NCBI RefSeq assembly: GCF_026625645.1
Contig: NZ_CP113056.1
Span: 1,054,001 to 1,118,000 of the forward strand
Length of the DNA: 64,000 nucleotides
Source of the DNA: Ancylobacter sp. SL191
GTDB lineage: Bacteria > Pseudomonadota > Alphaproteobacteria > Rhizobiales > Xanthobacteraceae
Reading direction: 5' to 3'
In this document: in pieces, positions 13,514 through 45,690 of the stretch
Position numbering within the stretch: position 1 is the first letter of the stretch
Layout: every line of letters begins with the position of its first letter
The notes under the pieces: model-generated
What the model was told of the DNA's origin: nothing
Seen by the model: the letters and a program-made list of their open reading frames with translations, nothing else
Databases searched by the model: none
Made by a program: the position numbers and the translations under genes

Positions 13514-15370
<1,857 letters not shown>

Positions 15371-15417
15371 GGCACGGGTCCAAGCGTATCTTGGCGGCAT
15401 CTGCTAGGGTTGGGGCC

Positions 15418-16071: not shown

Positions 16072-16102
16072 CCTTTCAAGCCGCGTCACCGGGATCGCAG
16101 AC

Positions 16103-16948: not shown

Positions 16949-16960
16949 GGGGAGGCGGCG

Positions 16961-17878
16961 ATGGCGATGGCCGAGGATGGCGGGCGCAACCGGCTCGGGC
17001 GGGGTCTCGCGGCCCTGATCGGCGACATGGCCGATATGAGCGATCTCGGCGGCGAGCGGGCCCGTTCCGCGCCGGCGGGGGGCGCTCGGCGCGTGCCGGT
17101 CGCCTTCATCAAGCCGAACCCGCACAACCCGCGCCGCACCTTCGCCGAGGAGGATCTGGAGGATCTCGCCGCCTCGATCCGCGAGCGCGGCATCATTCAG
17201 CCCATCGTGGTGCGGGCCGATCCGGCGAACCGCGAGCATTACGAGATCGTCGCCGGCGAGCGGCGCTGGCGCGCCTCGCAGCGCGCCGGGCTGCACGAGG
17301 TGCCGATCGTCGTCATCGAGGTGGATGACCGGCAGGCGCTGGAAATCGCCATCATCGAGAACGTCCAGCGCGCCGATCTCAACCCGCTGGAAGAGGCGGC
17401 GGGCTATCAGTCGCTCGCCGACCAGTTCGGCTATTCGCAGAACGATCTCGCCAAGGTGATCGGCAAGAGCCGCTCGCATGTGGCCAACACGATGCGCCTC
17501 CTGCGCCTGCCGGAGAGCGTGAAGGCCTATCTCGCCGATGGCCGCCTCTCCGCCGGCCACGCCCGCGCGCTGCTGACGCAGGACGACCCGGAGACGCTGG
17601 CGCGCGAGATCGTCGAGCGCGGCATGAATGTGCGGGCCATCGAGGCGCTGGCGCAGGAGCTCAACGAGGCCAAGGCGGAAGCCGCCGGCAAGCCGGCGCG
17701 CAAGCCGCGCACGCCTCCGGCGCTCGATGCCGACACGGCGGCGCTGCAGCGCCGGCTCTCCGACGAGCTCGGCCTCCAGGTCACGCTGCGCCATGATGGC
17801 GAGGCGGGCGAGATCCGCATCCGCTACGCCTCGCTCGACCAGCTCGACGAAGTCTGCCGCCGTCTCGCGAATGGCTGA
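16961..17878 (+). CDS. parB: Chromosome partitioning protein ParB (parS-binding CTPase)
   Basis: 305 residues. An N-terminal stretch RLGRGLAALIGD is the ParA-stimulating peptide type. The CTP-binding ParB/Spo0J domain contains NPHNPRRTF, IIQPIVVR, EIVAGERRWRAS and ENVQRADLNPLEEA. The helix-turn-helix lies around YSQNDLAKVIGKSRSHVANTMRLL, quoted by its core QNDLAKVIGKSRSHVAN. The C-terminal dimerisation part follows. It converges with holA after 23 bases. Confidence 0.97.
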   Translation: MAMAEDGGRNRLGRGLAALIGDMADMSDLGGERARSAPAGGARRVPVAFIKPNPHNPRRTFAEEDLEDLAASIRERGIIQPIVVRADPANREHYEIVAGERRWRASQRAGLHEVPIVVIEVDDRQALEIAIIENVQRADLNPLEEAAGYQSLADQFGYSQNDLAKVIGKSRSHVANTMRLLRLPESVKAYLADGRLSAGHARALLTQDDPETLAREIVERGMNVRAIEALAQELNEAKAEAAGKPARKPRTPPALDADTAALQRRLSDELGLQVTLRHDGEAGEIRIRYASLDQLDEVCRRLANG

Positions 17879-17901
17879 TCGACTAGGGCTGGGGGCCGGG
17901 C

Positions 17902-18927
17902 CTAGCCCCGCCGCGCCTGCGTCGCGAGCTGCAGCAGCGCGCGTTCGGCGATGGACGGGCCGAGCCCGGCATGGCGGCGGGCGGCCAGCAGCGCATCATC
18001 CAGCGTGAGCAGCGCGGTCAGCAGCCGCGGCACGGTCCAGCTGCGCAGCGCCTTCTCGACCAGCGGCTTGCGGCGGAAATGGATGGCGGGACGGGCGGAT
18101 TCGACCGCGCGCTCAGGGCTTCCACCCTGCTCGATGGACAGCCGCATCTGGTGCAGCGACTGGCCGGCACGGCAGACCGAGCCAAGAATGATGTCGGCCC
18201 GCATCCCCTCATGCGTCGCCTTGGCGAAAGCCGTGCTCATCTCCGCCGGCTGGCCGGCAAAGGCGCTGTCGGCGATTTCGTCCAGCGCGAGGCTTGAGGC
18301 GTCGCCGACAATGGCGCGCACATGCTCGGTGGTGATGCGCGGCTCGCCGGCGGCGTAGAGCAGCAGCTTGGAAATCTCGCCGCGCGAGGCCATCCGGTCG
18401 CCGCCGAGCAGGCCCATCAGCTCGGCGCGGGCGTCGCGGTCGATGGGAATGTTCGCCTCGGCCGTCATGGTGTCGATGAGGCGCGAGAGGTCGCGGTCGC
18501 TGTCGGCGTAGCAGACGATGGCATTGGCGCGCGGTGAACCCTCGCACAGCGCCCGCAGGCCCGCCCCGCGCTTGAGATCGCCGGCCTCGATCACCACCAC
18601 CGCGTCGGAAATCGGCGCCGCGAGCAGCGCCTCGACCGCCGGGACGATGTTGCGGCTGCCGGCGCGCAGCGAGATGACCCGCCGCCCGCCGAACAGCGCC
18701 ACGGTGCCGGCCTCATCCACCAGCCGGCCGGGATCACCGGAAATTTCGTCGCCATCGAGCCGGATCAGGCCGAACGGATCGGTGGAGCCGTCCATCGCCT
18801 TGGCGAGATAGGCGCGGGCGCGCTCGCGCACCAGACCGCTATCGGGCCCGAACAGCAGCAGGACGGGGCGCACCGTGTCGATGCGCGAGAGCGTCGCCTC
18901 GACGTCGGCCGGGCGGACGGCAACCAT
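17902..18927 (-). CDS. holA: DNA polymerase III subunit delta (clamp loader)
   Basis: 341 residues. Delta is the clamp-loader subunit that opens the beta sliding clamp. The sequence opens with VAVRPADVEATLSRIDTVRPVLLLFGPD and RERARAYLAKAM, typical of HolA, and has the C-terminal collar domain (AFRKATHEG-like, here AFAKATHEGMRAD). It starts 4 bases after lptE, and leuS-lptE-holA is a conserved alphaproteobacterial operon. The three genes are all on the minus strand, converging on parB. Confidence 0.9.
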   Translation of the reverse strand: MVAVRPADVEATLSRIDTVRPVLLLFGPDSGLVRERARAYLAKAMDGSTDPFGLIRLDGDEISGDPGRLVDEAGTVALFGGRRVISLRAGSRNIVPAVEALLAAPISDAVVVIEAGDLKRGAGLRALCEGSPRANAIVCYADSDRDLSRLIDTMTAEANIPIDRDARAELMGLLGGDRMASRGEISKLLLYAAGEPRITTEHVRAIVGDASSLALDEIADSAFAGQPAEMSTAFAKATHEGMRADIILGSVCRAGQSLHQMRLSIEQGGSPERAVESARPAIHFRRKPLVEKALRSWTVPRLLTALLTLDDALLAARRHAGLGPSIAERALLQLATQARRG

Positions 18928-31576: not shown

Positions 31577-32650
31577 TCAATCGACGAACAGGCGCGCATC
31601 CGTGGCGTCCCAGGCGAGGCGCACCCTCGCGCCGATTTCCGGCGTCTGCGGCAGTGCGGCGCTGGCGGCCGGCAGGCGCAGATTGACGCTCGCGCCCCAG
31701 CCGGTTGCCACCGTGAAATGGAAGGTCTCGCCGATGAAGGTGGCGTCCGCCAGCACGCCGTCAATGCCCGGCGCGCCGGCCTCGGCGAAGCGCAGCCGGT
31801 CCGGCCGGATCATCAGCGCCGCGTCATGGCCGGGCGCCGGGGTGCCGTGCAGGGGCTGGCCGGCGACGCGGCTGCCATCGGGGAAGACGATCTCCGCTCG
31901 GCCGCCGTCTCGGGCGGCGAGCTTGCCCTCCAGAAAATTGGAATGGCCGACAAATCCAGCCACGAAGCGGCTTTCCGGCTGCTCATAGAGCTCGCGGCCC
32001 TTGCCGATCTGCTCGATGCGGCCGTGGTTGAACAGGGCGATGCGGTCGGAGAGGCTCAGCGCCTCCTCTTGGTCGTGCGTCACATAGAGGATGGTGACGC
32101 CGGTCTCGCGGTGGATGCGGCGGATCTCGCCCTGGATCTCCTCGCGCAGCTTCTTGTCCAGCGCCGAGAGCGGCTCGTCCATCAGCAGCAGCGGCGGATC
32201 ATAGGCGAGCGCGCGGGCGAGCGCGACACGCTGCTGCTGGCCGCCGGACATCTGCGCGGGCAGGCGCCCGGCGAAGTTTTCCAGCCGCACCAGAGCCAGC
32301 ATCTCCTCGACCTTGCGGGCGATCTCCGCCGCCGGCCGGCGCCGCACGCGTAAGGGAAAGGCGACATTCTCGGCCACGGTGAGGTGCGGGAACAGGGTGT
32401 AGCGCTGGAACACCATGCCGATGTTCCGCTTGTTCGAGGGTTCAGCGAGGATGCTGCGCCCCTCCAGCCGCACATCGCCGCGCGTCGGCTCGAAGAAGCC
32501 GGCGATCATGTAGAGCGTCGTGCTCTTGCCCGAGCCGGACGGGCCGAGAAAGGTGACGAACTCGCCGCGCGCGATCTCCAATGAGACGTCATTGACGGCG
32601 GTGACGTTACCGAACGTCTTGGAAATATTATTGATTTCCAGAAAGGTCAT
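31577..32650 (-). CDS. ABC transporter ATP-binding protein, polyamine-type (PotA-like)
   Basis: 357 residues. Nucleotide-binding domain with Walker A GPSGSGKST (36-44), Q-loop VFQRYTLFPH (80-89), signature MSGGQQQR (134-141), Walker B LLLMDEPLSALD (154-165) and H-loop His192. A C-terminal TOBE region (about 235-357) is typical of PotA/FbpC-like importers. It overlaps the upstream permease by 4 bases and ends the importer operon near tRNA-Leu. The substrate class (spermidine/putrescine-type by family) does not fix the real ligand. Confidence 0.92.
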   Translation of the reverse strand: MTFLEINNISKTFGNVTAVNDVSLEIARGEFVTFLGPSGSGKSTTLYMIAGFFEPTRGDVRLEGRSILAEPSNKRNIGMVFQRYTLFPHLTVAENVAFPLRVRRRPAAEIARKVEEMLALVRLENFAGRLPAQMSGGQQQRVALARALAYDPPLLLMDEPLSALDKKLREEIQGEIRRIHRETGVTILYVTHDQEEALSLSDRIALFNHGRIEQIGKGRELYEQPESRFVAGFVGHSNFLEGKLAARDGGRAEIVFPDGSRVAGQPLHGTPAPGHDAALMIRPDRLRFAEAGAPGIDGVLADATFIGETFHFTVATGWGASVNLRLPAASAALPQTPEIGARVRLAWDATDARLFVD

Positions 32651-33447
32651 GAGCGGGCGTCCTTGCGGAAAAAGGCGGCAAGCGCCATGAGGCCAGCGGT
32701 GAGCGCGATCAGCAGCGTCGAGACGGCGGCGATCACCGGGGACAAGTCCTGGCGCAGCGTGCCGAAAATGCGCACCGGCAGGGTCTGCAGGTCCGGGCTC
32801 GCCATGAAGATGGCGATCACCACCTCGTCCCAGGAAGCGAGGAAGGAGAAGATCGCCGCGCTGATCAGTCCGAGGCGGATGCCCGGCAGGGTGACGCGGA
32901 TCTTCGCCTCCAATGGGCTCGCGCCGCAGACGATGGCGGCGGTCTCGATATCGCGGTCAAACCGTTCCAGCGCATTGGAAATCGCGATGATGGAGAAGGG
33001 TAGGGCGATCACCAGATGGGCGAGGACGAAACCCAGAAACGTGCCGTTGAGGTGCAGGCGCAGGAAGAAGGCGTATAATGCTACCGCCAGCACTACCACC
33101 GGCAGGATCATCGGCGTGAGGAACAGCGCGCGCAGCGCCGCGCGGCCGCGGAAGGTGCCGCGGGTGAGGCCGAAGGAGGCCATCAGCCCGATCAGCACCG
33201 AGAGCACTGTCACCACGGCGGCGATCTGGAAGCTGGTGAGGAAGGAGGCGAGCCAATCGGGATCGTCGAACAGCGCCTCATACCAGCGCAGCGTCCAGCC
33301 CGGCGGGGGGAATTGCAGCCATTGCGAGGAGCCGAAGGACAGGGCGACGATGAGCAGGATCGGTAGCAGCAGATAGGCGCCGACCAGCCCCGCAATCAGG
33401 ATGAGGGCGACGCGCCAGGCGCCGAGACGGGCGAAATCGAGCAGCAT
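32647..33447 (-). CDS. ABC transporter permease, PotC-like
   Basis: 266 residues with about six transmembrane helices, beginning at IAGLVGAYLLLPILLIVALS. The cytoplasmic coupling loop EAA motif is visible as AAIVCGASPLEAKIRVTLPGI, with the conserved Gly. PPGWTLRWYEALF near residue 47 is a typical PotC/PotI-family block. It pairs with the permease upstream (4-base gap) to form the membrane channel of the importer. Confidence 0.92.
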   Translation of the reverse strand: MLLDFARLGAWRVALILIAGLVGAYLLLPILLIVALSFGSSQWLQFPPPGWTLRWYEALFDDPDWLASFLTSFQIAAVVTVLSVLIGLMASFGLTRGTFRGRAALRALFLTPMILPVVVLAVALYAFFLRLHLNGTFLGFVLAHLVIALPFSIIAISNALERFDRDIETAAIVCGASPLEAKIRVTLPGIRLGLISAAIFSFLASWDEVVIAIFMASPDLQTLPVRIFGTLRQDLSPVIAAVSTLLIALTAGLMALAAFFRKDARS

Positions 33448-33451
33448 GGGC

Positions 33452-34330
33452 CTAGCTCCTCGTCTCGCCGAAGCCGAAAAAGCGTAGCTGGATCATATAG
33501 ATGGCCAGCGTGATGACGAGCAGCACCAGCGCCGCCGCCCCCGCCAGCCCCCAATCGAGCAGCGACTGCACGAGCTGGGCGATCAACTCCGCCAGCATCA
33601 TATTGGCGGTGCCGCCGAGCAGCGCGGGGGTAATAAAATACCCAAGCGACATGACGAACACCATCAGCGCCCCGGCGGCGATGCCGGAGGCGGTGAGCGG
33701 CAGCATCACGCGGGTGAAGGCCTGCCACCGGCTCGCCCCGCACAAGGCGGCGGCCTGGAAGATGGCGGGGTCCATGGCGCGGATCGTGGCGTGCAGCGGC
33801 AGGATCATGAACGGTAACATGATATAGGTCATGCCGATGGTGACACCGACGAGGTTGTTGATCAGCGGCAGCGGCTCGGAGATGAGGCCGAGATTCATCA
33901 GCGTGCGGTTGATGATGCCGGTGCGCTGAAGCAGCACCATCCAGGCATAGGTGCGGGCCAGAAGGTTGGTCCACATCGACAGGATGACGATGGCGAAGAG
34001 CAGCCGCGACCAGACGCTCGGCGCGATGGCCAGGAACCAAGCCACGGGAAAACCAAGCAGAACCGTCACGACCGTGACCGTGCCGGCGACCAGAAACGTG
34101 TTGCCGAGCACCTTCAGATAGGTCGTGGAGGCGAAGAAGGCGGCGTAGTTCTGCAGCCCCGGCGTCGGCTCCAGCACGCTGCGCAGCAGCAGCGCCAGCA
34201 CGGGAATGACGAAGACGACGGCCACCAGAACCAGCGCCGGCAGCACGGGCACGAGCCCCCGGCCGCGCCGTCGAGGCGTCGTGGAGGTAATATGAGGCCG
34301 CTCAGTCGCCGTCAGGTCGGTCACGGTCAT
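33452..34330 (-). CDS. ABC transporter permease, PotB-like
   Basis: 292 residues. A cytoplasmic start rich in Thr/Arg is followed by a first helix (VPVLPALVLVAVVFVIPVLALLL) and five further ones. The EAA loop reads AAALCGASRWQAFTRVMLPLT. NLLARTYAWMVLLQRTGIINR is characteristic of PotB-like permeases (core TYAWMVLLQRTGIIN). It follows the binding-protein gene after an unusually long 229-base gap with stem-loops. Confidence 0.92.
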   Translation of the reverse strand: MTVTDLTATERPHITSTTPRRRGRGLVPVLPALVLVAVVFVIPVLALLLRSVLEPTPGLQNYAAFFASTTYLKVLGNTFLVAGTVTVVTVLLGFPVAWFLAIAPSVWSRLLFAIVILSMWTNLLARTYAWMVLLQRTGIINRTLMNLGLISEPLPLINNLVGVTIGMTYIMLPFMILPLHATIRAMDPAIFQAAALCGASRWQAFTRVMLPLTASGIAAGALMVFVMSLGYFITPALLGGTANMMLAELIAQLVQSLLDWGLAGAAALVLLVITLAIYMIQLRFFGFGETRS

Positions 34331-34523: not shown

Positions 34524-34574
34524 GATCACTGCGTGTGGCGGGTCACTGCGCCTGCCAGATCACTGCGCCTGCCA
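34524..34574. repeat. 17-base tandem repeat spanning the binding-protein stop codon
   Basis: Three adjacent units: GATCACTGCGTGTGGCG (34524-34540, degenerate), GGTCACTGCGCCTGCCA (34541-34557) and GATCACTGCGCCTGCCA (34558-34574). The last encodes the end of the binding protein (WQAQ and stop), so the terminus of the gene has been duplicated downstream of itself. Confidence 0.85.
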
Positions 34575-35615
34575 CGCGTACCAGCGCTTGCCGATCTCGT
34601 CGCGATGGGCGGCCCAGTAGCCCATGTCGAGATTGATCTGCGACGCCGTGTGCTTGTCCGGCAGGGTAGCGGCGATCTCCTTCGGCATCAGCGCGGCAGC
34701 ACCGGTGTTGATCGGGGCGAAGCCGGTATCGGCGTCGAAGTTGGCCTGCGCCTTGGCGCTGCTCGCCTCGGCGATGAACTTCATCGCGGCCTCCTTGTTC
34801 TTCGAGCCCTTCGGCACCACCAGCATGTCGGCGGCGGTCAGGTTCTGTTCCCAGGAGACGCCGACCTTGGTGCCGCCCTTTTCGAGGGCGAACAGGCGCC
34901 CGTTCCAGAACATGCCGAGCGGCGCCTCACCGGAGGCGAGGAGCTGCTGCGACTGGGCACCCGAACCCCACCACACGATGTCCTTCTTGATGCTGTCGAG
35001 CTTCTTGAAGGCGCGGTCGAGATCGAGCGGGTAGAGCTTGTCGGCCGGCACGCCGTCGGCCAGCAGGGCGATTTCGAGCACACCCGGCGCCGACCATTTG
35101 TAGAAGGTGCGCTTGCCCGGGAAGGTCTTGGTGTCGAACAGGTCTGCCCAGCTCTTCGGGGTCTTGCCGCCGAAGGCATCGGGCGCGAAGCCGAGCACGA
35201 AGGAATAGTAGAAGCTGCCCACCGCATGGTCGGTGACGAAACGGGGATCCAGCTCGGCGCGCTTGACGATGGAGAAGTCGATCGGCTCCAGCAGGCCCTC
35301 CTTCGCCGCCACGGCGGCAAAATCGGCTTCGACGTCGACCACGTCCCAGGAGACATTGCCGCTGTCGACCATGGCCTTCAGCTTGCCGTAGTCGGTGGGC
35401 CCGTCCATCTTCACGGCGATGCCGCTGGCCTTGGTGAAGGGTTCCGCCCAGAACTTCTTCTGGGCGTCCTGCGTGGTGCCGCCCCAACTCGTGAAGACGA
35501 TGGAGCCGGAGGCGGCCATGGCCACGCCAAGTCCCAGGCCGACCGCGATCGCGGTGGCGGCGAGGCCGAGCAGGCGGCGGGACGCGTGGTTGTGCGGTTT
35601 ACGCGATGACGTCAT
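34560..35615 (-). CDS. ABC transporter substrate-binding protein, PotD/PotF-like
   Basis: 351 residues from ATG 35615 (AGGGGAAC upstream). The signal NHASRRLLGLAATAIAVGLG has a twin-arginine-like RRLLG, followed by an Ala-rich cleavage region. The mature part starts IVFTSWGGTTQDAQKKFW, the typical beginning of polyamine-family binding proteins, and continues with WDVVDVEADF and APLGMFWNGR. It should capture the ligand in the periplasm and deliver it to the permeases downstream. The carboxylates that bind diamines in PotD are not all evident to me, so the ligand may differ. Confidence 0.9.
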   Translation of the reverse strand: MTSSRKPHNHASRRLLGLAATAIAVGLGLGVAMAASGSIVFTSWGGTTQDAQKKFWAEPFTKASGIAVKMDGPTDYGKLKAMVDSGNVSWDVVDVEADFAAVAAKEGLLEPIDFSIVKRAELDPRFVTDHAVGSFYYSFVLGFAPDAFGGKTPKSWADLFDTKTFPGKRTFYKWSAPGVLEIALLADGVPADKLYPLDLDRAFKKLDSIKKDIVWWGSGAQSQQLLASGEAPLGMFWNGRLFALEKGGTKVGVSWEQNLTAADMLVVPKGSKNKEAAMKFIAEASSAKAQANFDADTGFAPINTGAAALMPKEIAATLPDKHTASQINLDMGYWAAHRDEIGKRWYAWQAQ

Positions 35616-35967
35616 GGTGTTCCCCTGTGGTTGCAGGCCGATGCCGGCAACACGCAGCGCTTTCGTGAGCGTCCGCCTGTCCTCGGTCACCGATGATTTT
35701 TCTGGTCGGAAGGCGTCGAAAGACTTTGCCGTCCGGAGGTGTGCCCCGGGCGGAGGAAGGCGGCTGTAAAGCCGCAGCAATGTCGACATCGAAATTTGAT
35801 ATCACTCGAATATATTTATCAATATCAAAATTATAACTGACGGAAGGTGAGCTTGCGCTTTCCGCACGGCATCCCGACTGCCTTCTATTCATCGCCGGAT
35901 CTTTCCCTGACGTCATCGTCGAGCTCCAATCGCGGATCTGGGCCCGGCGCCGTGGGGGCCGCGCGGC
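35616..35967. promoter_or_regulatory. ABC-operon promoter region with AT-rich inverted-repeat operator
   Basis: 352 bases between the binding protein and NIPSNAP genes. The notable part is a markedly AT-rich block at 35790-35835 holding TTTGATAT (35795-35802) and ATATCAAA (35822-35829), a perfect 8-base inverted repeat separated by 19 bases with TATATTTATC inside. Such geometry suits a dimeric regulator or overlapping -10 elements. A frame reading across it (to 35916, minus strand) has no family features and I do not call it a gene. Confidence 0.5.
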
Positions 35968-36282
35968 TCAGTCGAGCGGCGAGAAAGGTGTCGGCAGGAG
36001 AATCTTGTTCTCCATGGTTTCGATCAGCGCCTGGATCTTCGGCAGGAAGACCTGCCAAGCGGGATCGGCATTCAGCCGCGCGCGGCGCGCCGCGCGGTCA
36101 TCCAGGCTCGCATAGGCCCAGATATGGACGATCTCGTTGAGCGGGCCGATCTCGCTGGTGAAATAGCCGACGAGGTTGCCGAGATAGCTTTTCTGCAGGG
36201 CGATGCCTTCGTCCGCGACCAGCTTCACATAGGCCGGCACTGCGCCCGTCTTCAGCCGGTAGGTGCGCATCTCATAGAGCAT
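35968..36282 (-). CDS. NIPSNAP-family protein
   Basis: 104 residues from ATG 36282 (MLYEMRTYRLKTG), the standard NIPSNAP start; a longer frame to 36420 runs inside the upstream gene. The pattern EMRTYRL, LVGYFTSEIGPLNEIVHIWAY (core GPLNEIVHIW) and DPAWQVF defines the family: small dimeric alpha/beta-barrel proteins with mostly unknown, often catabolic, roles. It is last in the operon, 7 bases after the aldehyde dehydrogenase. Confidence 0.9.
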   Translation of the reverse strand: MLYEMRTYRLKTGAVPAYVKLVADEGIALQKSYLGNLVGYFTSEIGPLNEIVHIWAYASLDDRAARRARLNADPAWQVFLPKIQALIETMENKILLPTPFSPLD

Positions 36283-36289
36283 GGAAGCC

Positions 36290-37774
36290 TCAACGCATGA
36301 CGAAGGGATCGTCGATCGGCGCGTCGGAGGTGCGCAGCCAGACCGACTTGGTGCGGGTGTAATCGCGGATCGATTCCGCCCCGCCCTCGCGCCCGAGGCC
36401 CGACTGGCCATAGCCGCCAAAGGGCACGATGGGGGAGACGGCGCGGTAGGTGTTCACCCAGACGATGCCGGCCCGCAGCTTGCGGATCAGCCGGTGGGCG
36501 CGGGTAAGATCGCGGGTGAAGACACCGGAGGCGAGGCCGAACGGGCTGTCATTGGCTTTCGCGATGGCGTCCGCCTCATCGGTGAAGCCGATGACGCTGA
36601 GCACCGGGCCGAACAGCTCCTGCGCCGCGCAGGGCACTTCATTGCCGGCGCAGGCGAGGATGGTGGGCGCGTAATAATTGCCGGCTAAGAACCCGTCCGC
36701 GCGGGTGCCGCCGGTGACGAGGGTCGCCCCCGCCGCAAGGCTCGCGGCGACGACTTCCTCGATATGCGCGAGCTGGCGCGCGGTGGCCAGCGGGCCCATT
36801 TCGGTCGCGGGATCCTGCGGGTCGCCGATGCGGATGCGGCGGGCTTTCTCGGTAAGGATGGCGATGAGCTTGTCGCGCACGCTCTCCTCGACGAACAGCC
36901 GCGAGCCGGCGACGCAGCTCTGGCCGGAGGCGGCGAAGATGCCGGCCACCACGGCATTGGCCGCGCTCTCCAGATCGGCATCGGCGAACACCAGCACCGG
37001 CGACTTGCCGCCGAGTTCCAGCGTCGTAAAAGCGAGGTTCTCCGCCGTGTTGCGCACCACATGGCGGGCGGTGGAGGGCCCGCCGGTGAAGGCGACGCGC
37101 GAGACGAGCTTATGGGCGGTGAGCGTTCGCCCGCATTCCTCGCCGAAGCCGGTGATTATGTTGACGACGCCGGGCGGGAAGCCCGCCTCATGCACCAGCC
37201 GGGCGAAGGCGAGCAGCGGCGCGGGGCCTTCCTCGGACGCCTTCAGCACGACGGTGCAACCCGCCGCCAGCGCCGGGCCGAGCTTCACGGCGGAGAGGAA
37301 AAGCTGCGAGTTCCACGGCACCACGGCGGCGACGACGCCGATCGGCTCGCGGCGCAGCCAGGCTTCCATGTCCGGCTTGTCGACGGGCAGATGCGCGCCT
37401 TCCACCTTGTCGGCGAGGCCGCCGAAATAGCGGTAGTACTCCGCGACATAGCCGATCTGCGCCCGCGTCTCGCGGATGATCTTGCCGGTGTCGCGGGTCT
37501 CAAGCTCGGCTAGTTCCTGCGCATGGGCGGCCACGAGGTCGCCGAGCTTGATGAGCAGCTTGCCGCGCTGTGTGGCGGTGAGGTTCGCCCATGCCGGCGC
37601 CTCGAACGCCCGGTGGGCGGCCTCGACGGCACGGTTCACGTCGGCGCTCGTCGCGGCCGGCATCACCGCCCAGGGCTGGCCGGTCGCCGGGTCAAGGCTC
37701 TCGAAACTCGCCCCGCCCGGCACGAAGGCGCCGTCAATATAGAGCCGGAAATCGTCGCGCAGGGCGGGGGTCAT
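36290..37774 (-). CDS. NAD(P)-dependent aldehyde dehydrogenase
   Basis: 494 residues. The catalytic Cys287 (GQSCVAGSR) and general-base Glu253 (LELGGKSP) are present, along with VVPWNSQL, the cofactor loop FTGGPSTARHV and the C-terminal PFGGYGQSGLGREGG. The overall length and motifs resemble betaine/aminobutyraldehyde or hydroxymuconic-semialdehyde-type enzymes; I cannot assign the substrate. It probably oxidises the aldehyde released by the monooxygenase encoded 10 bases upstream. Confidence 0.92.
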   Translation of the reverse strand: MTPALRDDFRLYIDGAFVPGGASFESLDPATGQPWAVMPAATSADVNRAVEAAHRAFEAPAWANLTATQRGKLLIKLGDLVAAHAQELAELETRDTGKIIRETRAQIGYVAEYYRYFGGLADKVEGAHLPVDKPDMEAWLRREPIGVVAAVVPWNSQLFLSAVKLGPALAAGCTVVLKASEEGPAPLLAFARLVHEAGFPPGVVNIITGFGEECGRTLTAHKLVSRVAFTGGPSTARHVVRNTAENLAFTTLELGGKSPVLVFADADLESAANAVVAGIFAASGQSCVAGSRLFVEESVRDKLIAILTEKARRIRIGDPQDPATEMGPLATARQLAHIEEVVAASLAAGATLVTGGTRADGFLAGNYYAPTILACAGNEVPCAAQELFGPVLSVIGFTDEADAIAKANDSPFGLASGVFTRDLTRAHRLIRKLRAGIVWVNTYRAVSPIVPFGGYGQSGLGREGGAESIRDYTRTKSVWLRTSDAPIDDPFVMR

Positions 37775-37784
37775 CGGGGCTTCC

Positions 37785-38843
37785 TCACGCCGCCACGGAG
37801 GCGGCTTGCGCGAAGGCGGGCATCACCTCGCGGATGAACAGTTCGAGCGACTTCTTCTTGCGGGCATGGCTGATACCGGCGTCGATCCAGATGGAGAACT
37901 GGTCGAAGCCCAGCGCCTCGTAACCCTTGAGCCGGCTGATCACCTCGTCGGGCGGGCCGATGACGAGGTTCTTGCGCACCACATCGGGGGCGTATTGCGG
38001 GTAGGCGGCGCGCTCCTCGGGAGTGAGCGGGGCCATGATCGCCTGATGGATCGGGCGCTTATTGGCGAACCAGGCGGCGAACAGGCCGTACCAGGCGGAG
38101 AGGTCGTCGGCGAGCTGCTCGGCCTCGGCCTCGCTGTCGGCCACAAAAGCGTGCTGCAGCAGCATGATCTTCGGGCGCGGCACCTCGGGGTGGTTGGCGA
38201 CGGCCGTGGAAAAACGCTCCATCAGGCTCGCCACCTCGCCATCGCCGGAGGCGAGCGGCGTCACCTGCACATTGCAGCCATTGGCCACCGCGAAATCATG
38301 GCTGTTGGGGTCGCGCGCGGCGATCCAGATCGGCGGGCCTCCAGCCTGCACCGGCTTGGGCGAGGCGGTGGAGGTCGGGAAGCTCCAGAACTGGCCCTCA
38401 TGGGCGTAGTCGCCTTCCCAGAGCTTCTGCACCGCCGGCACCAACTCGCGCATGCGCAGGCCCGCGCCCATGGCGTCGAGGCCGGGCAGCAGGCGCTCAT
38501 ACTCGAACATATAGGCGCCGCGGGCGACGCCGAGATCGAGCCGGCCCTCGCAGGCGACATCCATCATCGCTGCCTCGCCAGCCAGCCGCACCGGGTGCCA
38601 GAACGGCGCGATCACATTGCCGGTGCCGAGGCGGATGGTGGAGGTCTTCGCCGCGAGATGGGCGAGCTGGATGAACGGGTTCGGCGCGATGGTGAATTCC
38701 ATCGCGTGGTGCTCGCCGATCCACACCGTCTCGAAGCCGGCGGCCTCGGCGATCAGCGCCAGCTCCTCCAGCTCGTCAAAGAGCTGGCGGTGCGGGATGG
38801 CGGGATCGAGGCGCTCCATATGGACGAAGAGGGAGAACTTCAT
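37785..38843 (-). CDS. LLM-class flavin-dependent monooxygenase (bacterial luciferase-like)
   Basis: 352 residues. MKFSLFVHMERLDP opens the barrel, then AEAAGFETVWIGEHHAMEFT (core GFETVWIGEHH), IRLGTGNVIAPFWHPVRLAGEAAMMD (core FWHPVRLAGEAA) and GRLDLGVARGAYMFEY (core LDLGVARGAY), all family marks. Such enzymes use reduced FMN supplied by a partner reductase and O2 to oxidise alkanesulphonates, nitrilotriacetate, pyrimidines and many others. The partner is probably the fused reductase next door (21-base gap). The substrate is unknown. Confidence 0.92.
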   Translation of the reverse strand: MKFSLFVHMERLDPAIPHRQLFDELEELALIAEAAGFETVWIGEHHAMEFTIAPNPFIQLAHLAAKTSTIRLGTGNVIAPFWHPVRLAGEAAMMDVACEGRLDLGVARGAYMFEYERLLPGLDAMGAGLRMRELVPAVQKLWEGDYAHEGQFWSFPTSTASPKPVQAGGPPIWIAARDPNSHDFAVANGCNVQVTPLASGDGEVASLMERFSTAVANHPEVPRPKIMLLQHAFVADSEAEAEQLADDLSAWYGLFAAWFANKRPIHQAIMAPLTPEERAAYPQYAPDVVRKNLVIGPPDEVISRLKGYEALGFDQFSIWIDAGISHARKKKSLELFIREVMPAFAQAASVAA

Positions 38844-38864
38844 GGCGGGGATCCCGGTGCTGGT

Positions 38865-40679
38865 TCAGGCGTGGTCGAGAGAGGGCGTAGGGAGAGGGCG
38901 CGCGAGCGGATGAATCTGGCCACGCTCGGCATCGCCGACATAGATGCCGAACGCGTCCTCGCGCCGCTCGCGCACATAGCGCGCCACCATGGCACGGGTC
39001 GCCTCGTCCGGCAGGCGCGCGAAATCGATAGCGGTGAGCGGCACCAGAAGGGCGCCGGCCTCGGTGGCGGGCGTGCCGGCAAGGGCGCCCCGGTAATAGA
39101 TCGACACGGTGGGCGGGGCGTCGGCGGTGGCCGCCGGGGTCTCGAACACCGCGAAGAGGAAGGACAGATGCCCCTCGACGCCGAGCGTGGCCAGCGCGCC
39201 GCGCAGGCTCTTCGGGTTCGAGGTGGGCTCGAGGCAGGTGCCGGTGGGCAGCGTAAGGCGCCCCTGCGCATCCTCCACCAGCAGCAGCGCGCCATCGGTC
39301 TCCAGTATGGCGCCGACGCGGGCCGGTTCGCCGCGCTTGGCGAGCGCCTGCGGACCGAGCGCGAAATCGACATAGGCGCCGCGGCAATAGCCGAGCGGGG
39401 CGGCATCATCGCTGCCGAAGCCCTCGACGCGGCCGATCAGGATCACATGGTCGCCCGCTTCCACCACCTCATGGCGGCTGCAGTCGAACCACGCCGCCGC
39501 GCCGGAGATCACCGGGCTGCCGGCCGGGCCGAGATGCCAGTCGGCGCCGGCGAACTTGTCGGGCGACTTCGAGGCGAACAGCGCCGACACATCCTTCTGC
39601 GCCGCCGCGAGGATCGAGACGGCGAAGTTGTCGGCGGCGGAAAACACCGGGTAGCTCGACGCGGTCCTGGCGATGCAGACGAGGATCAGCGGCGGGTCGA
39701 GCGAGACGGAGGAGAAGGAATTGGCGGTGAAGCCGCGCATCTCCCCGGCGGCGTTGCGCGTCGTCACCACGGTGACGCCGGTGAGGAAGCTGCCGAGCGC
39801 CTGCCGGAACGCCTTCACGTCGAAGGCGGGCGGAGCCGCGGTCCCGGCGCGGGCGCGTTCCACCTCGTCGATGAAGGCGAGGAGCCGGGCATTCACCGTG
39901 TCGGGATGGGTGAGGTTCATCATGTGCCGGGCGCCGGGCAGCACCTCGGCGCGGCCCTGCGGGGCGAGGCGGGCCATGGCGCGCGACATGTCCGGCGTCG
40001 AGTTCGGATCGCCCTCGGCGGTCATGAACAGAGCGGGCAGAGCGAGCCCGGCGAGGCGCTCGCGATGGGCGGCATCGGAGGCGGCGAACAGCCCATAGGT
40101 GCGGGCATAGCCAACCGGATCGCAGCCGGCGAGCAGGGCGGAGACCAGATGCGCCGAGGCTTCCAGCTCCACCGGCACCGGCGTGCCGAACCAGCGGGCG
40201 ACCGCCGCCTCATGCGAGGCGCTGGTGTCGCCGTCGCTGAGGCTTTGCGCGCGGGCGAGCACGGCGGCGCTCTGCTCCGCGCTGCGGCAGAACACGGCGT
40301 TGAGCGCGGCGACGCCGAGCACGCGGGAGGGGTGGGCCAGCGCCGTCTCCAGCGCCACCAGCGCGCCCATGGAATGGCCGATCACCACGGCGGCGGGAAG
40401 GCCTAGCGCGTCCAGCACGGCGACGACATGGGCCGCGTAGTCGGAGAGCCGCGCATCTTCCGGCGGCAGCGAGGAGCCGCCATGGCCGGGCATGTCGAGG
40501 GCGATCACGTCATGGCGGGCAGCGAGCGCCTTGATCTGCGGGCCCCAGGCATCGAGCGAGAGGCCGACGCCATGGATCAGCACGACCGGCAGGGCGCCGG
40601 CCACGCCCTCGCGGCGGACATGCACCTGCGACGGGCGCCCGTCCCGGCCGGCATAGGCGAGGGTGCGCACCTCAGCCAT
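38865..40679 (-). CDS. Three-domain fusion: alpha/beta hydrolase, flavin reductase, degenerate Nudix-like domain
   Basis: 604 residues in one frame from ATG 40679. Residues 1-270 form an alpha/beta hydrolase: LIHGVGLSLDAWG, LDMPGHGGSS, nucleophile Ser103 in GHSMGAL, Asp224 in TAEGD and His252 in GARHMMNL. Residues about 284-442 are a HpaC/RutF-type flavin reductase: FRQALGSFLTGVTVVTT, FTANSFSSVSLDPPLILVC (core GFTANSFSSVSLDPP) and YCRGAYVDF. Residues about 452-560 resemble a Nudix fold (VGAILETDGALLLVEDAQGRL, LPTGT), but the catalytic REx2EE residues are missing. It overlaps the DUF1185 gene by 8 bases. The reductase part presumably serves the LLM monooxygenase. Confidence 0.88.
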   Translation of the reverse strand: MAEVRTLAYAGRDGRPSQVHVRREGVAGALPVVLIHGVGLSLDAWGPQIKALAARHDVIALDMPGHGGSSLPPEDARLSDYAAHVVAVLDALGLPAAVVIGHSMGALVALETALAHPSRVLGVAALNAVFCRSAEQSAAVLARAQSLSDGDTSASHEAAVARWFGTPVPVELEASAHLVSALLAGCDPVGYARTYGLFAASDAAHRERLAGLALPALFMTAEGDPNSTPDMSRAMARLAPQGRAEVLPGARHMMNLTHPDTVNARLLAFIDEVERARAGTAAPPAFDVKAFRQALGSFLTGVTVVTTRNAAGEMRGFTANSFSSVSLDPPLILVCIARTASSYPVFSAADNFAVSILAAAQKDVSALFASKSPDKFAGADWHLGPAGSPVISGAAAWFDCSRHEVVEAGDHVILIGRVEGFGSDDAAPLGYCRGAYVDFALGPQALAKRGEPARVGAILETDGALLLVEDAQGRLTLPTGTCLEPTSNPKSLRGALATLGVEGHLSFLFAVFETPAATADAPPTVSIYYRGALAGTPATEAGALLVPLTAIDFARLPDEATRAMVARYVRERREDAFGIYVGDAERGQIHPLARPLPTPSLDHA

Positions 40680-41277
40680 TTCGCACTTCCACACCCTGGG
40701 TGGAGCCGAGCTCTTCCAGATCGAGATAACGGTTGCCGATGCGGTGATGCGGGCGCCCGCCAATCGAGGCGCCGAGCGCGACGACGATCTCGTCCGGCGC
40801 CGGGGCGTCGAGAATGGAGAACTGGATGGTGAGGTAATGCGAGCGGCGGCCCTCATCCAGCTTGTCCATCAGCGGGATGACGACGGGGGTGTTCGGCCCG
40901 CCGCGCGTATTGGTGAAGGCGAGGTAGCTCTTGGCGCCGACCGCCTTGCGGTAATGATTTCCGAAGCGCAGCGTGTGGATGAGCGCCGAGGCGTGCTCGA
41001 CCTCGCCCGACGTGCCGACGATCGCCGCCTTGCCATAGCCCTCGACCACCTCGCCGCCGCCGGTGAGCTTCAGCACTTCCTCGGTCAGCAGCGCGCCGAG
41101 CTGGGGGGCGACATCGTGAATCTCCGGGCGGAGATCCTCGACGAAGCCGCGCCCGGCCCACGGGTTGGTCAGCACGGCCGCCGCCGCGAACAGGCGCAGC
41201 GGCACCGGCGCGGCGCGGCCGCCCTCGATCAACGTGGTCTCAGTGTAGGTGACGACCTTGCGGAGCTGCAGCGGCAT
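40672..41277 (-). CDS. DUF1185 (amino-acid synthesis-like, AA_synth) protein
   Basis: 201 residues. The family (Pfam AA_synth, PF06684) is recognised from NPWAGRGFVEDLRPEIHDVAP (core NPWAGRGFVEDL), GKAAIVGTSGEVEHASALIHT (core GKAAIVGTSGEVEH) and a C-terminal EIVVALGASIGGRPHHRIG (core GASIGGRPHHR). Its activity is not established and the name amino-acid synthesis is misleading. It is the first gene of the five-gene operon facing the GntR regulator, directly behind the palindromic operator. Confidence 0.88.
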   Translation of the reverse strand: MPLQLRKVVTYTETTLIEGGRAAPVPLRLFAAAAVLTNPWAGRGFVEDLRPEIHDVAPQLGALLTEEVLKLTGGGEVVEGYGKAAIVGTSGEVEHASALIHTLRFGNHYRKAVGAKSYLAFTNTRGGPNTPVVIPLMDKLDEGRRSHYLTIQFSILDAPAPDEIVVALGASIGGRPHHRIGNRYLDLEELGSTQGVEVRNG

Positions 41278-41345
41278 CGGTGTTCCCAGTCAGAAGCGGG
41301 GTCGGCCGGCGCCTCGGAGCGGGCTGGCGCCTTGCGTTTCATATG

Positions 41346-41357
41346 ATGGTATACCAT
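41346..41357. promoter_or_regulatory. Palindromic operator for the divergent GntR regulator
   Basis: ATGGTATACCAT is a perfect 12-base palindrome in the AT-rich stretch at 41340-41372 of the 147-base gap between the DUF1185 operon and the GntR gene. GGTATACC-like palindromes are typical targets of FCD/FadR-subfamily GntR regulators. Confidence 0.75.
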
Positions 41358-41424
41358 AAGATTATCGAGTCAATTGTCATCCCGCGCCACTCGGGCGACA
41401 AGAGGTGTGGGAACGGAGACATCC

Positions 41425-42120
41425 ATGGCGGGCATCGTGGACGCGAACGGCGCGGGCGAGGAAATGAAGGTCGAGCGCAGCGTCACCACGCTGCGCAGCC
41501 TGACGCTGGAGAAGATGCGCGACGCCATTCTCGACTTCCGCTTCAAGCCCGGCGAGCGGCTGGTCGAGCGCACGCTGTGCGAGCGGCTGGGGGTGAGCCG
41601 CAGCGTGGTGCGCGAGGTGCTGCGGCATCTCGAGGCCGAGGGGCTGGTCGAGACCATTCCCCATCAGGGCCCGGCGGTGACGCGGCCCGACCCGAAGCAG
41701 GCGGCGCAGATCTACGAGATACGCGGCCTGCTGGAGAGCGAGGCGGCGCGGGCCTGCGCCCTCACCGCGAGCGAGGCCGACATCGCCGCGCTCGGCGCGG
41801 TGATCGACGAGATCGACACCGCCTTCCAGACCGGCAGCCCGCGCGAGGTGCTGCGCCGCACGACCGAGTTCTACGAGAAGCTGTTCGTCGCCGCCGGCAA
41901 GGAAGTGGCGTGGGATGTGGTGCGCTCGCTCAATGCGCGCATCAACCATCTGCGCTCCATGACTATCGCGGCGGAAGGCCGCCATGCCGACGCCATCGCC
42001 GAGATGCGGGCGCTGCACGCGGCGCTTCTTCGCCGCGACGGCGAGGCCGCCTATGCGGCGAGCCGCGCCCATGTGGCGACGGTGGCCCGCCTCGCCAACG
42101 CCATTCTCGGCACGCTCTGA
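41425..42120 (+). CDS. GntR-family transcriptional regulator, FCD (FadR) subfamily
   Basis: 231 residues from ATG 41425 (GGAGA upstream); an ATG at 41374 would run through the intergenic region. The N-terminal winged helix contains LTLEKMRDAILDFRFKPGERL, LCERLGVSRSVVREVLRHLEAEGLVE (core GVSRSVVREVLRHLEAEG). The helical FCD ligand domain (about 90-231) has the metal-binding type residues EIRGLLES and DEID. Divergent from the DUF1185 operon with a perfect palindrome between, so it very likely controls that operon and itself. Confidence 0.92.
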   Translation: MAGIVDANGAGEEMKVERSVTTLRSLTLEKMRDAILDFRFKPGERLVERTLCERLGVSRSVVREVLRHLEAEGLVETIPHQGPAVTRPDPKQAAQIYEIRGLLESEAARACALTASEADIAALGAVIDEIDTAFQTGSPREVLRRTTEFYEKLFVAAGKEVAWDVVRSLNARINHLRSMTIAAEGRHADAIAEMRALHAALLRRDGEAAYAASRAHVATVARLANAILGTL

Positions 42121-43328: not shown

Positions 43329-44420
43329 CTAGCCCGCTTTGCCCGCCGGCTGCTGCTGGGTGATGCAGTGGATGTTGCCGCCGCCGAGCACGATCTCGCG
43401 CGTCGGCAGGCCGATCACCTCGCGGTCTGGGAACAGGCCGGCGAGGATGGCGCGGGCCGTCTCATCGGTGCGCGGGTCGAGCAGCGGCATCAGCACGAAG
43501 CCATTGCCGAGGTAGAAATTGGCGTAGGAGGCGCCGAGCCGCTCCTGCGCGTGGCGCTGATAGGCATTGTCGGCCGGGGCGTCCTCGATCGCCTCGTCCG
43601 GCGCGCGGTAGAGCGGGCCGGGCAGCGGCAGCTTGACGATCTCGATGCCGCGCCCGCGCGCATCCGTCCGGCCCGACAGGCGCTCAAAGGCATCGACCGA
43701 GATGGCGTGCTGCGGGTCCGCCGGGTCGTCGCACCAGGTCAGCGCGACGACGCCCGGCCGCACGAAGCAGGCGAGGTTGTCGATATGGCCGGAGGTCTCG
43801 TCATCGACGAGGCCGGCGCCGAGCCAGATCACCTTGGAGGCGCCGAGATAGTCGCACAGATGCCGCTCGATCTCCTCGCGGGTCAGCGACGGGTTGCGGT
43901 TGGGGTTAAGCAGGCATTCCTCGGTGGTAAGCACCGTGCCCTCGCCATCGACATGGATCGAGCCGCCTTCCAGCACCAGCGGCGCGTCATAGCGCGGGGT
44001 GCCCCCGATTTCCGCCATCTTGGCGGCGATCAGCGCGTCCTGGTCGCAGGGCGCGTAGAGCCCGCCCCAGGCGTTGAACCGCCAGTTCACCGCGCGCACG
44101 GCGCCAGCGGCGTCGGTGACGAAAGTGGCGCCGGAATCGCGGCACCAGGAATCGTCCGAGGACGCCTCGACCACCCGTACATTGGCGGGGAGCGCGGCGC
44201 GGGCGCGGGCCCATTGACCGGCGGAGGTCAGCATGGTCACCGGCTCGAAGCGGGCAATGGTGCTGGCGACCGCGACGAAGGCCGCCTGCGCCGGGGCGGC
44301 GCCCTGGCGCCAATTGTCCGGCCGCTCGGGCCAGATCATCCAGGTGCCGGCATGGGGTTCCCATTCGGCCGGCATGCGGAAGCCGTCGGCGGCGGGCAGG
44401 CTGGTGAGGATCTCGGCCAT
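43329..44420 (-). CDS. aguA: Agmatine deiminase
   Basis: 363 residues. It converts agmatine to N-carbamoylputrescine and ammonia. The sequence matches the porphyromonas-type peptidylarginine deiminase family: MPAEWEPHAGTWMIWPERPDNWR (core EWEPHAGTWMIWP), DSWCRDSGATF, WGGLYAPCDQD, GGSIHVDGEGT and the catalytic Cys352 in GGGNIHCITQQQP. It follows aguB by only 3 bases, so the two consecutive steps of agmatine breakdown are co-expressed. Confidence 0.95.
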   Translation of the reverse strand: MAEILTSLPAADGFRMPAEWEPHAGTWMIWPERPDNWRQGAAPAQAAFVAVASTIARFEPVTMLTSAGQWARARAALPANVRVVEASSDDSWCRDSGATFVTDAAGAVRAVNWRFNAWGGLYAPCDQDALIAAKMAEIGGTPRYDAPLVLEGGSIHVDGEGTVLTTEECLLNPNRNPSLTREEIERHLCDYLGASKVIWLGAGLVDDETSGHIDNLACFVRPGVVALTWCDDPADPQHAISVDAFERLSGRTDARGRGIEIVKLPLPGPLYRAPDEAIEDAPADNAYQRHAQERLGASYANFYLGNGFVLMPLLDPRTDETARAILAGLFPDREVIGLPTREIVLGGGNIHCITQQQPAGKAG

Positions 44421-44423
44421 GGC

Positions 44424-45314
44424 TCAGGCCACCCCGCGCGCGGTGGTGCGCCCGTCCAGGGTCAGCACCGGTGCATAGAGCTCCGGCCGGCGGTCGCGGA
44501 ACACGCCCCAGCTGCGGCGCTGCTGGGCAATGGCGTCGAGGTCGAAGGTGGCGGTGATGACGCCCTCTTCCGCGCGGCCGGCTTCGGCCACCTTGGCCCC
44601 GGTCGGGTCGGCGATGAAGGAGGAGCCGTAGAAGGTGATCTCGGTTCCGTTCCGGCCGGGCTCGGTGCCGACGCGGTTGGAGGCGATGAGCGGCATGAGG
44701 TTCGCCCCGGCATGGCCCTGCATCACCCGCTGCCAGTGCGCGGCCGAATCAAGGCTCGGATCCTGCGGCTCGGAGCCGATGGCGGTGGGATAGAGCAGCA
44801 CCTCGGCGCCCATCAGCGCCATGGAGCGGGCGCATTCGGGGAACCACTGGTCCCAGCAAATGCCGACGCCGATGCGCCCGGCCGCCGTGTCCCACACCTT
44901 GAAGCCGGTATCGCCGGGCGAGAAATAGAACTTCTCGGTGTAGCCCGGCCCGTCCGGGATGTGGCTCTTGCGGTAGACGCCGCGCACCGTGCCATCCGCG
45001 TCGACGATGGCGATGGAATTGAACAGCGCCTGACCGGCGCGCTCGAAGAAGCTCACCGGCAGCACGACGCCGAGTTCCTTCGCCAGCGCCTGGAAATGGC
45101 CGATCAGCCGGTTGCCCTCCAGCGGCTGGGCGAGGGCGAGGAATTCGTGCAGCTGGTCCTGGCAGAAATAGGGGGTCTCGAACAGCTCCTGGAGCAAGAT
45201 CAGCGTCGCCCCGCGTCCGGCGGCCTCGCGCACCAGCGCCTCGGCGCGGGCGATATTGGCCTCGATCTCCCAGCTGCAACGCATCTGGGTGGCGGCGACG
45301 GTCAGGCTGCGCAT
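44424..45314 (-). CDS. aguB: N-carbamoylputrescine amidase
   Basis: 296 residues from ATG 45314 (GGAGAAC upstream). A carbon-nitrogen hydrolase with the Glu-Lys-Cys triad at Glu43 (LQELFETPYF), Lys116 (YRKSHIPDGPGY) and Cys153 (GVGICWDQWFPE). It hydrolyses N-carbamoylputrescine to putrescine, CO2 and ammonia, directly following AguA in the arginine-to-putrescine route. Longer frames upstream are antisense or unrelated sequence. Confidence 0.95.
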   Translation of the reverse strand: MRSLTVAATQMRCSWEIEANIARAEALVREAAGRGATLILLQELFETPYFCQDQLHEFLALAQPLEGNRLIGHFQALAKELGVVLPVSFFERAGQALFNSIAIVDADGTVRGVYRKSHIPDGPGYTEKFYFSPGDTGFKVWDTAAGRIGVGICWDQWFPECARSMALMGAEVLLYPTAIGSEPQDPSLDSAAHWQRVMQGHAGANLMPLIASNRVGTEPGRNGTEITFYGSSFIADPTGAKVAEAGRAEEGVITATFDLDAIAQQRRSWGVFRDRRPELYAPVLTLDGRTTARGVA

Positions 45315-45351
45315 TCTGTTCTCCGGGGGAGCGACGCGGGGCGGGCGTGGT

Positions 45352-45690
45352 TCAGTTGACCACGCGCAGGGGTTTTTCCAACACCTGCAGCACGCGCGCA
45401 AGCTCGTGCCCGCGCTTGAGGATGAGGCCGGTCTGCGACACCACCGTGTAGGCGCCCTGCTTGCGGGCGAGGCGCGGGTCTTTCTCGATGCGGTAGATCG
45501 GCACCTCGGCGGCGCGGCGGAAGATGGAGAACACCGCCCGGTCGCGGCCGAAGTCGATGGCGTAGTCGCGCCACTCGCCAATGGCGACCATGCGGCCATA
45601 GAGGTCGAGAATGCGGTCGAGCTCGCGCCGGTCGAAGGTCACGCGCACATCACGCCCGACCGGCAGGCTTATGGGATCGGTGTCCGCCAC
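45352..45690 (-). CDS. DUF2794 family protein
   Basis: 112 residues. The family is recognised from VTFDRRELDRILDLYGRMVAIGEWRDYAIDF (core LYGRMVAIGEWRDYAID), AVFSIFRRAAEVPIYRIEK and ARKQGAYTVVSQTGLILKRG (core QGAYTVVSQTGLILKRG). It is found mostly in alphaproteobacteria and has no known function; the small size, lack of signal peptide and strong conservation suggest a cytosolic housekeeping role. It lies 37 bases upstream of aguB on the same strand. Confidence 0.85.
   Translation of the reverse strand: MADTDPISLPVGRDVRVTFDRRELDRILDLYGRMVAIGEWRDYAIDFGRDRAVFSIFRRAAEVPIYRIEKDPRLARKQGAYTVVSQTGLILKRGHELARVLQVLEKPLRVVN

Follow-up and report, generated by a model that had tools for sequence, protein, structure and literature searches.

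Degradation of the plant compound trigonelline (N-methylnicotinate) by the tgn genes is the described system closest to an operon of Ancylobacter sp. SL191 that encodes a DUF1185 protein, a fusion of an alpha/beta hydrolase with a flavin reductase, a luciferase-like flavin-dependent monooxygenase (LLM), an aldehyde dehydrogenase (ALDH) and a NIPSNAP-family protein, and that lies on the minus strand of the 64,000-nucleotide stretch of DNA analysed here (contig NZ_CP113056.1, positions 1,054,001 to 1,118,000; hereafter the window). The tgn chemistry of trigonelline reportedly goes back to Perchat et al. in 2018 and to TgnA-F of Acinetobacter baylyi ADP1. According to the available excerpts of other publications, the trigonelline ring is opened by TgnA/TgnB (PMC8269262), TgnB is counted among the luciferase-like enzymes (PMC11354265), and TgnF of A. 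baylyi, a homolog of a PF06684 protein, promotes the TgnE-dependent oxidation of succinate semialdehyde (PMC7913881). In Sinorhizobium meliloti, again as far as the excerpt goes, the wild type grows on trigonelline whereas a pSymA-less strain does not (PMC4207669).

How does the operon in the window compare with these genes? Like A. baylyi tgn it encodes a putative two-component flavin oxygenase, a TgnC-type ALDH, an alpha/beta hydrolase and a PF06684 protein. Particular to the version in the window, and unlike A. baylyi, are the fusion of hydrolase and reductase, a Pot-like ABC importer, the NIPSNAP protein and the lack of a succinate-semialdehyde dehydrogenase (SSADH) in the operon. We propose, with a probability of roughly 0.83, that the block is an operon of the tgn kind for the uptake and degradation of trigonelline. 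A first-pass annotation had found no evident substrate and had singled out the operon as the best candidate for an undescribed system; homology to a published pathway with a defined substrate points to trigonelline instead, the ALDH being 67% identical to Acinetobacter P0340, which is named (Z)-2-((N-methylformamido)methylene)-5-hydroxybutyrolactone dehydrogenase (TgnC). Most likely, the operon is a soil bacterium's form of this known pathway, which explains most of it, and is then not a new system.

Operon structure and enzymes

Five minus-strand open reading frames form one tight operon that reads away from the divergent gene of a GntR/FCD regulator, with gaps of -8 bases (an overlap of 8) between DUF1185 and fusion, 21 between fusion and LLM, 10 between LLM and ALDH and 7 between ALDH and NIPSNAP. 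Open reading frames and Pfam matches agree in every detail with this layout as first annotated, and Pfam likewise bears out the reading as a catabolic operon of flavin reduction, flavin-dependent oxidation, hydrolysis and aldehyde oxidation. Downstream of the NIPSNAP gene follow the four genes of the ABC importer (35615-31577, minus strand). They belong to the unit, which thus extends beyond its initial limits; an importer also comes after the operon in S. meliloti, Rhizobium, Mesorhizobium and Azospirillum. The interval between NIPSNAP and importer (35500-36100) contains no terminator-like and no minus-strand promoter-like site, which does not decide between one and two transcripts. The host genome comprises 4.65 Mb in a single contig.

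The ALDH (494 residues; 36290..37774, minus strand; Aldedh 1.6e-163), which would be a TgnC-like dehydrogenase of N-methylformamido-methylene hydroxybutyrolactone (MFMB), falls into one clade with every named TgnC protein in a tree of 26 chosen loci, among which L151 gave no match of sufficient length, and seven of the eight proteins bearing that name. In a search from an Acinetobacter venetianus plasmid ALDH, 8 of the 120 proteins listed were Acinetobacter proteins so named by NCBI or UniRef. Four ALDH paralogs of the host genome, out of 17 other ALDH matches, are 34-42% identical to the window ALDH. The LLM (352 residues; 37785..38843, minus strand; Bac_luciferase 3.6e-57), a putative TgnB-like ring-opening oxygenase, forms one clade with the Sinorhizobium and Acinetobacter plasmid copies. 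The JGI label 'flavin-dependent trigonelline monooxygenase, oxygenase component' is carried by 6 of 120 LLM homologs listed, one of them 79% identical, and no Acinetobacter protein named TgnB was among the matches listed in either LLM protein search. Among the matches listed, the nearest named LLM proteins belong to Ancylobacter sp. WKF20, at 98% identity, and to A. radicis, at 93%.

The DUF1185 protein (AA_synth, PF06684; 201 residues; 40672..41277, minus strand; Pfam 1e-67), possibly a TgnF-like helper, shares 72% identity with its counterpart on pSymA of S. meliloti and has the PDB relatives 2qtp and 3byq. Its gene is the sole PF06684 match in the host genome, and none of 14 control genomes had such a match. 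The NIPSNAP protein (104 residues; 35968..36282, minus strand; Pfam NIPSNAP 1.2e-35) is encoded at the same position in S. meliloti and Rhizobium johnstonii.

The fusion (604 residues; 38865..40679, minus strand; Abhydrolase_1 1e-29, Flavin_Reduct 1.8e-41) consists of a TgnD-like hydrolase (residues ~1-275), a TgnA-like flavin reductase (~287-440) and a C-terminal domain common to PDB 3rh7. This structure, titled SMa0793 of S. meliloti, aligns to residues 284-594 and is nearly identical to the pSymA reductase. An AlphaFold2 model of the fusion reached a mean pLDDT of 78 and a pTM of 0.50, and the hydrolase part has the right fold and position, the fold comparison covering mainly residues 1-275. 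S103, D224 and H252 are unchanged across 18 fused sequences, the window's among them, and may be the catalytic residues. Within the block, conservation is weakest in hydrolase and reductase: the hydrolase is 42-43% identical to two cluster copies, and the reductase matches that of pSymA at 42% over 314 residues. For the C-terminal 162 residues (window 38868-39353) no Pfam family matched, and 3rh7 was the only spanning PDB sequence among the matches listed; part of this domain appears Nudix-like by eye. At one Ancylobacter locus (L148, 9154-11669) there is no reductase match, and a lone hydrolase gene precedes the LLM gene by 94 bases.

Conservation of the block in related genomes

The window proteins were compared by tblastn with 136 stretches of at least 11 kb, window included. 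Among 112 other loci with an LLM at least 56% identical, a partly interrelated set selected for LLM similarity, DUF1185 was found in 108, the hydrolase in 105, the reductase in 99 and the ALDH in 109. All four lie on the same strand and within 4.5 kb of the LLM gene in 98 of the 112 loci, which argues against chance neighbourhood. The comparison of gene order across genomes that accompanied the first-pass annotation as a proposal thus confirmed a conserved core, with NIPSNAP near the LLM in 22 loci and the importer, judged by its binding protein and two permeases, no more than 9 kb away in 44. The loci are not independent, as 14 come from Ancylobacter and some species are doubled (L050/L055, L047/L176, L086/L157). 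Moreover, each query contributed a single match per locus, the best one within 9 kb, and divergent second copies can therefore make a locus seem incomplete; when second copies were inspected in 21 loci, six more proved complete (L093, L094, L104, L111, L117 and L123). At E <=1e-60 an LLM was detected in 15 of the 30 genomes searched in the genus, in 0 of 7 family members outside it, in 3 of 24 further genomes of the order and, counting the host genome, in 21 of 289 at the level of the class; 326 of 72,556 plasmid records match at 1e-40. All these counts include distant LLMs of ~40% identity. The genome-contig scan, queried with the Chimaeribacter LLM, contained no Acinetobacter among the best 80 loci that were kept.

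On pSymA of S. meliloti the order is PF06684, hydrolase, reductase, LLM, ALDH, NIPSNAP and four importer genes, which is the order of the window; the proteins are 42-72% identical, and a palindrome with one mismatch to that of the window (see below) stands at the corresponding place. Unlike in the window, hydrolase and reductase are separate genes, and the regulator-like match, instead of being divergent, is upstream and has the orientation of the operon. The cluster is situated in the symbiotic region, with noeB on one side and nifT on the other, and is preceded by IS21 genes. The Mesorhizobium plasmids pMESCI01 and pM0123d share with the window a fused hydrolase-reductase (599 residues in pMESCI01), a divergent GntR gene, the exact palindrome and the importer but gave no NIPSNAP match. 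In A. venetianus and Chimaeribacter a cytosine-permease-like gene comes after the operon, where the window has the Pot-like importer.

Orthology is seen in trees as well as in conserved neighbours. In the LLM tree a subclade of 19 sequences (support 0.89) unites the window with Ancylobacter, Mesorhizobium and Azospirillum, next to a larger group of Sinorhizobium, Acinetobacter, Chimaeribacter and others (88 sequences, support 0.95), and both subclades together form one clade apart from distant LLMs of 38-47% identity. For a first LLM tree matches with any stop were dropped; for the later one sequences were cut at stops after residue 325 and the rest dropped. Fused hydrolase-reductase forms are present in both subclades.

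A sister cluster in Agrobacterium fabrum pAt (L051, 7466-13255), Azospirillum oryzae (L181, 7472-16835) and a Mesorhizobium sp. (L182, 4747-11907) is more distant. In A. fabrum and A. oryzae it has the same families as the window, including NIPSNAP and PF06684, but differs in its order (reductase, ALDH, LLM, hydrolase), in its ProX-type glycine-betaine importer and in lacking the palindrome, with identities of 44-46% for the LLM and 46-48% for the ALDH. The palindrome was found in none of the three loci. All three have a large helix-turn-helix gene nearby instead of a GntR match and importers of the ProX or amino-acid type. The A. oryzae cluster adjoins genes for an Asp/Glu racemase and an N-carbamoylsarcosine amidohydrolase, which makes another pyridine-type substrate plausible for this sister cluster.

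Regulator and palindrome

Between the operon and the gene of the GntR/FCD regulator (231 residues; 41425..42120, plus strand; FCD 1.1e-23, GntR 2e-15; start ATG 41425, GTG 41407 possible) lies the palindrome ATGGTATACCAT (41346..41357), the 10-base form of which, TGGTATACCA (41347-41356), stands 69 bases ahead of the DUF1185 start. The 12-base form occurs once in the 4.65-Mb genome. Of the 10-base form the window has a single site, even if one mismatch is tolerated, against an expectation of 0.10. A first scan with a wider pattern found a match upstream of DUF1185 in 96 of 118 loci, window included. Across 110 loci with an LLM at least 56% identical and a DUF1185 match (window included; L150, L156 and L160, having no DUF1185 match, left out), TGGTATACCA is exact upstream of DUF1185 in 95, has one mismatch in 12 and two to four in 3, whereas 330 control bases taken from within the LLM gene give 0 of 110 at one mismatch or fewer. 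A GntR homolog is encoded within 9 kb of the LLM in 103 of the 112 loci, and palindrome and regulator family are common to both LLM subclades. Of the 10 loci (LLM at least 50%) that are devoid of a nearby GntR homolog, 5 have no good palindrome and 5 retain it. The palindrome overlaps the second hexamer of promoter-like sites reading towards DUF1185 and thus into the operon, suggesting repression. Probably the palindrome is the operator and the GntR/FCD protein the local repressor.

Importer

The importer consists of a solute-binding protein, the probable trigonelline binder (34560..35615; SBP_bac_8; start ATG 35615, upstream ATG 35789 possible), a PotB-like permease (33452..34330), a PotC-like permease (32647..33447; BPD_transp_1 7.9e-13) and a PotA-like ATPase (31577..32650; ABC_tran 3.5e-37, TOBE_2), all encoded on the minus strand. 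The binding protein is 68% identical to that of the corresponding S. meliloti operon, the PotB-like permease 67% and the ATPase 61%; for the PotC-like permease two pSymA records of this species give 54% (L047) and 70% (L176). Judged by identity rather than by a tree, importers of one kind accompany enzymes of either LLM subclade.

Could the whole operon instead serve the uptake and breakdown of polyamines or agmatine? The importer resembles PotABCD, the available excerpt of PMC7268258 describes potABCD2 of S. meliloti (SMa0799-803) as serving putrescine uptake and counts it among the transport genes essential for symbiosis, and aguA/aguB (agmatine deiminase and N-carbamoylputrescine amidase, both canonical and above their NCBIfam cut-offs) lie nearby at 43329-45599. 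Yet all four Pot models stay under cut-off (PotD 71.2 of 582, PotB 163.5 of 348, PotC 144.6 of 326 and PotA 336.6 of 482 bits), and the importer comes after tgn-like genes in S. meliloti, Rhizobium and Mesorhizobium, with no agmatine genes listed beside the block in four annotated importer-bearing plasmid stretches of relatives, the gene tables of which are incomplete. A polyamine or agmatine operon is thus very improbable, and the agmatine genes are probably not part of the unit. Of the earlier argument for a nitrogenous substrate, which rested on both neighbours, the link to the importer holds and the link to the agmatine genes probably falls away. By its position after SMa0793, the importer at 14880-18739 of the pSymA stretch L047 would be potABCD2, the substrate of which may need re-examination; we infer this correspondence, as there was no gene table with the pSymA 1021 record.

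Proposed pathway

From homology the following route can be predicted for substrate, reactions, importer specificity and repression. Trigonelline would be taken up by the Pot-like ABC importer. The flavin-reductase half of the fusion would provide reduced flavin to the LLM enzyme, which with O2 would open the pyridinium ring to yield MFMB. The ALDH would convert MFMB to the methylene-succinate (MFMS), which the hydrolase half of the fusion would split into CO2, formate, methylamine and succinate semialdehyde. The latter would be oxidized to succinate by an SSADH encoded elsewhere, perhaps aided by the DUF1185 protein, and the NIPSNAP protein would have an accessory role. Furthermore, the GntR/FCD protein would repress by sitting on TGGTATACCA over the promoter, until trigonelline or an intermediate releases it.

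Outside the operon one gene exceeds the TIGR01780 cut-off for SSADH (671.4 vs 646.35), the role of TgnE. A type III glutamine synthetase above cut-off adjoins three N-methylglutamate-synthase-like genes (GATase, GXGXG and glutamate-synthase-like), a combination with GmaS that we take to be the make-up of an N-methylglutamate synthase locus. These probable N-methylglutamate synthase genes and the GmaS-like glutamine synthetase (L193, 3942-8374) lie next to a D-amino-acid dehydrogenase gene and likely constitute a locus for methylamine use. A formate dehydrogenase is over its cut-off as well. SSADH, glutamine synthetase locus and formate dehydrogenase would fit the products succinate semialdehyde, methylamine and formate, albeit they are common enough to prove little.

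Alternative explanations

Several points weigh against trigonelline as substrate. The TgnC names and JGI labels are homology-based, and the comparison was made without authenticated A. baylyi Tgn sequences. No TgnE is encoded in the operon. HcdD, another PF06684 protein, had no TgnF-like effect in the available part of one report (PMC7913881), and in an excerpt of another an amino-acid role was proposed for PF06684 from gene neighbours (PMC2954203). A literature search found no gene-by-gene mapping of the pSymA trigonelline genes; searches on DUF1185/PF06684, trigonelline/tgn, homarine catabolism and SMa07xx gave nothing on this operon among the matches listed, and none linked Ancylobacter with trigonelline. 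In addition, the LLM subclade of the window is separate from that of Acinetobacter and Sinorhizobium, the ALDH tree splits alike, 13 near-fixed LLM differences distinguish the subclade sets compared, and the hydrolase is so divergent from the two cluster copies. Finally, Caballeronia arvi (L128, 4045-12517) carries two tgn-like LLM-ALDH sets back to back, which would be redundant if both did the same job and thus weighs against trigonelline for both. The second C. arvi set has no hydrolase or reductase match between DUF1185 and LLM.

It could therefore be imagined that the Ancylobacter-type subclade applies tgn chemistry to another N-methylated or N-substituted pyridine, such as another pyridinium betaine or N-methylnicotinamide, and such a sister substrate would explain the C. 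arvi double set and the strongest divergence in hydrolase and reductase. We regard this as unlikely, although it deserves more weight than any other alternative. Palindrome and regulator family are the same in both subclades, and one kind of importer goes with enzymes of either. In a comparison of 21 LLMs of the window type, 88 of the Acinetobacter/Sinorhizobium type and 16 distant ones (L150, L151, L156, L160, L161 and LLMs of 48-55% left out), 116 of 352 positions have the same residue at 95% or more in both sets, 25 of them with residues seldom found in the distant LLMs. By eye, about 8 of the 13 fixed differences look conservative. For this comparison L128_1, L179 and L180 were grouped with the window type though basal in the LLM tree (support 0.34); in the ALDH tree L179 groups with the window (0.72). 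Paraburkholderia caribensis, Caballeronia sp. SBC1 and one C. arvi copy are basal and unsupported in the LLM tree, and the P. caribensis ALDH groups with the window at 0.72. Moreover, six Burkholderia and Paraburkholderia loci (L105, L121, L115, L123, L104 and L117) combine an Acinetobacter-type operon with a divergent window-like set of regulator, importer and either a reductase or the C-terminal end of one, a set with no LLM or ALDH of its own in the listed matches. This mixing of parts argues for one substrate. Breakdown of pyrimidines as in the Rut pathway, or of another non-pyridine N-heterocycle, is the least probable of the alternatives. The first-pass annotation had called the logic Rut-like, and the families of LLM, flavin reductase and alpha/beta hydrolase are indeed shared, but nothing beyond these enzyme classes is: RutF and RutD remain below their equivalog cut-offs (102.6 of 254.75 and 75.9 of 238.5 bits), no RutA model is among the best 25 of 30 LLM matches, and ALDH and DUF1185 match tgn instead.

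Implications

With trigonelline as the proposed substrate, an unknown operon becomes a testable assignment. It predicts that TGGTATACCA is the operator of a trigonelline regulon across alpha-, beta- and gammaproteobacteria, and that two enzymes of the pathway act as one fused protein. It also predicts that the Pot-like importer in such operons carries trigonelline, in which case potABCD2 of S. meliloti may be a trigonelline importer.

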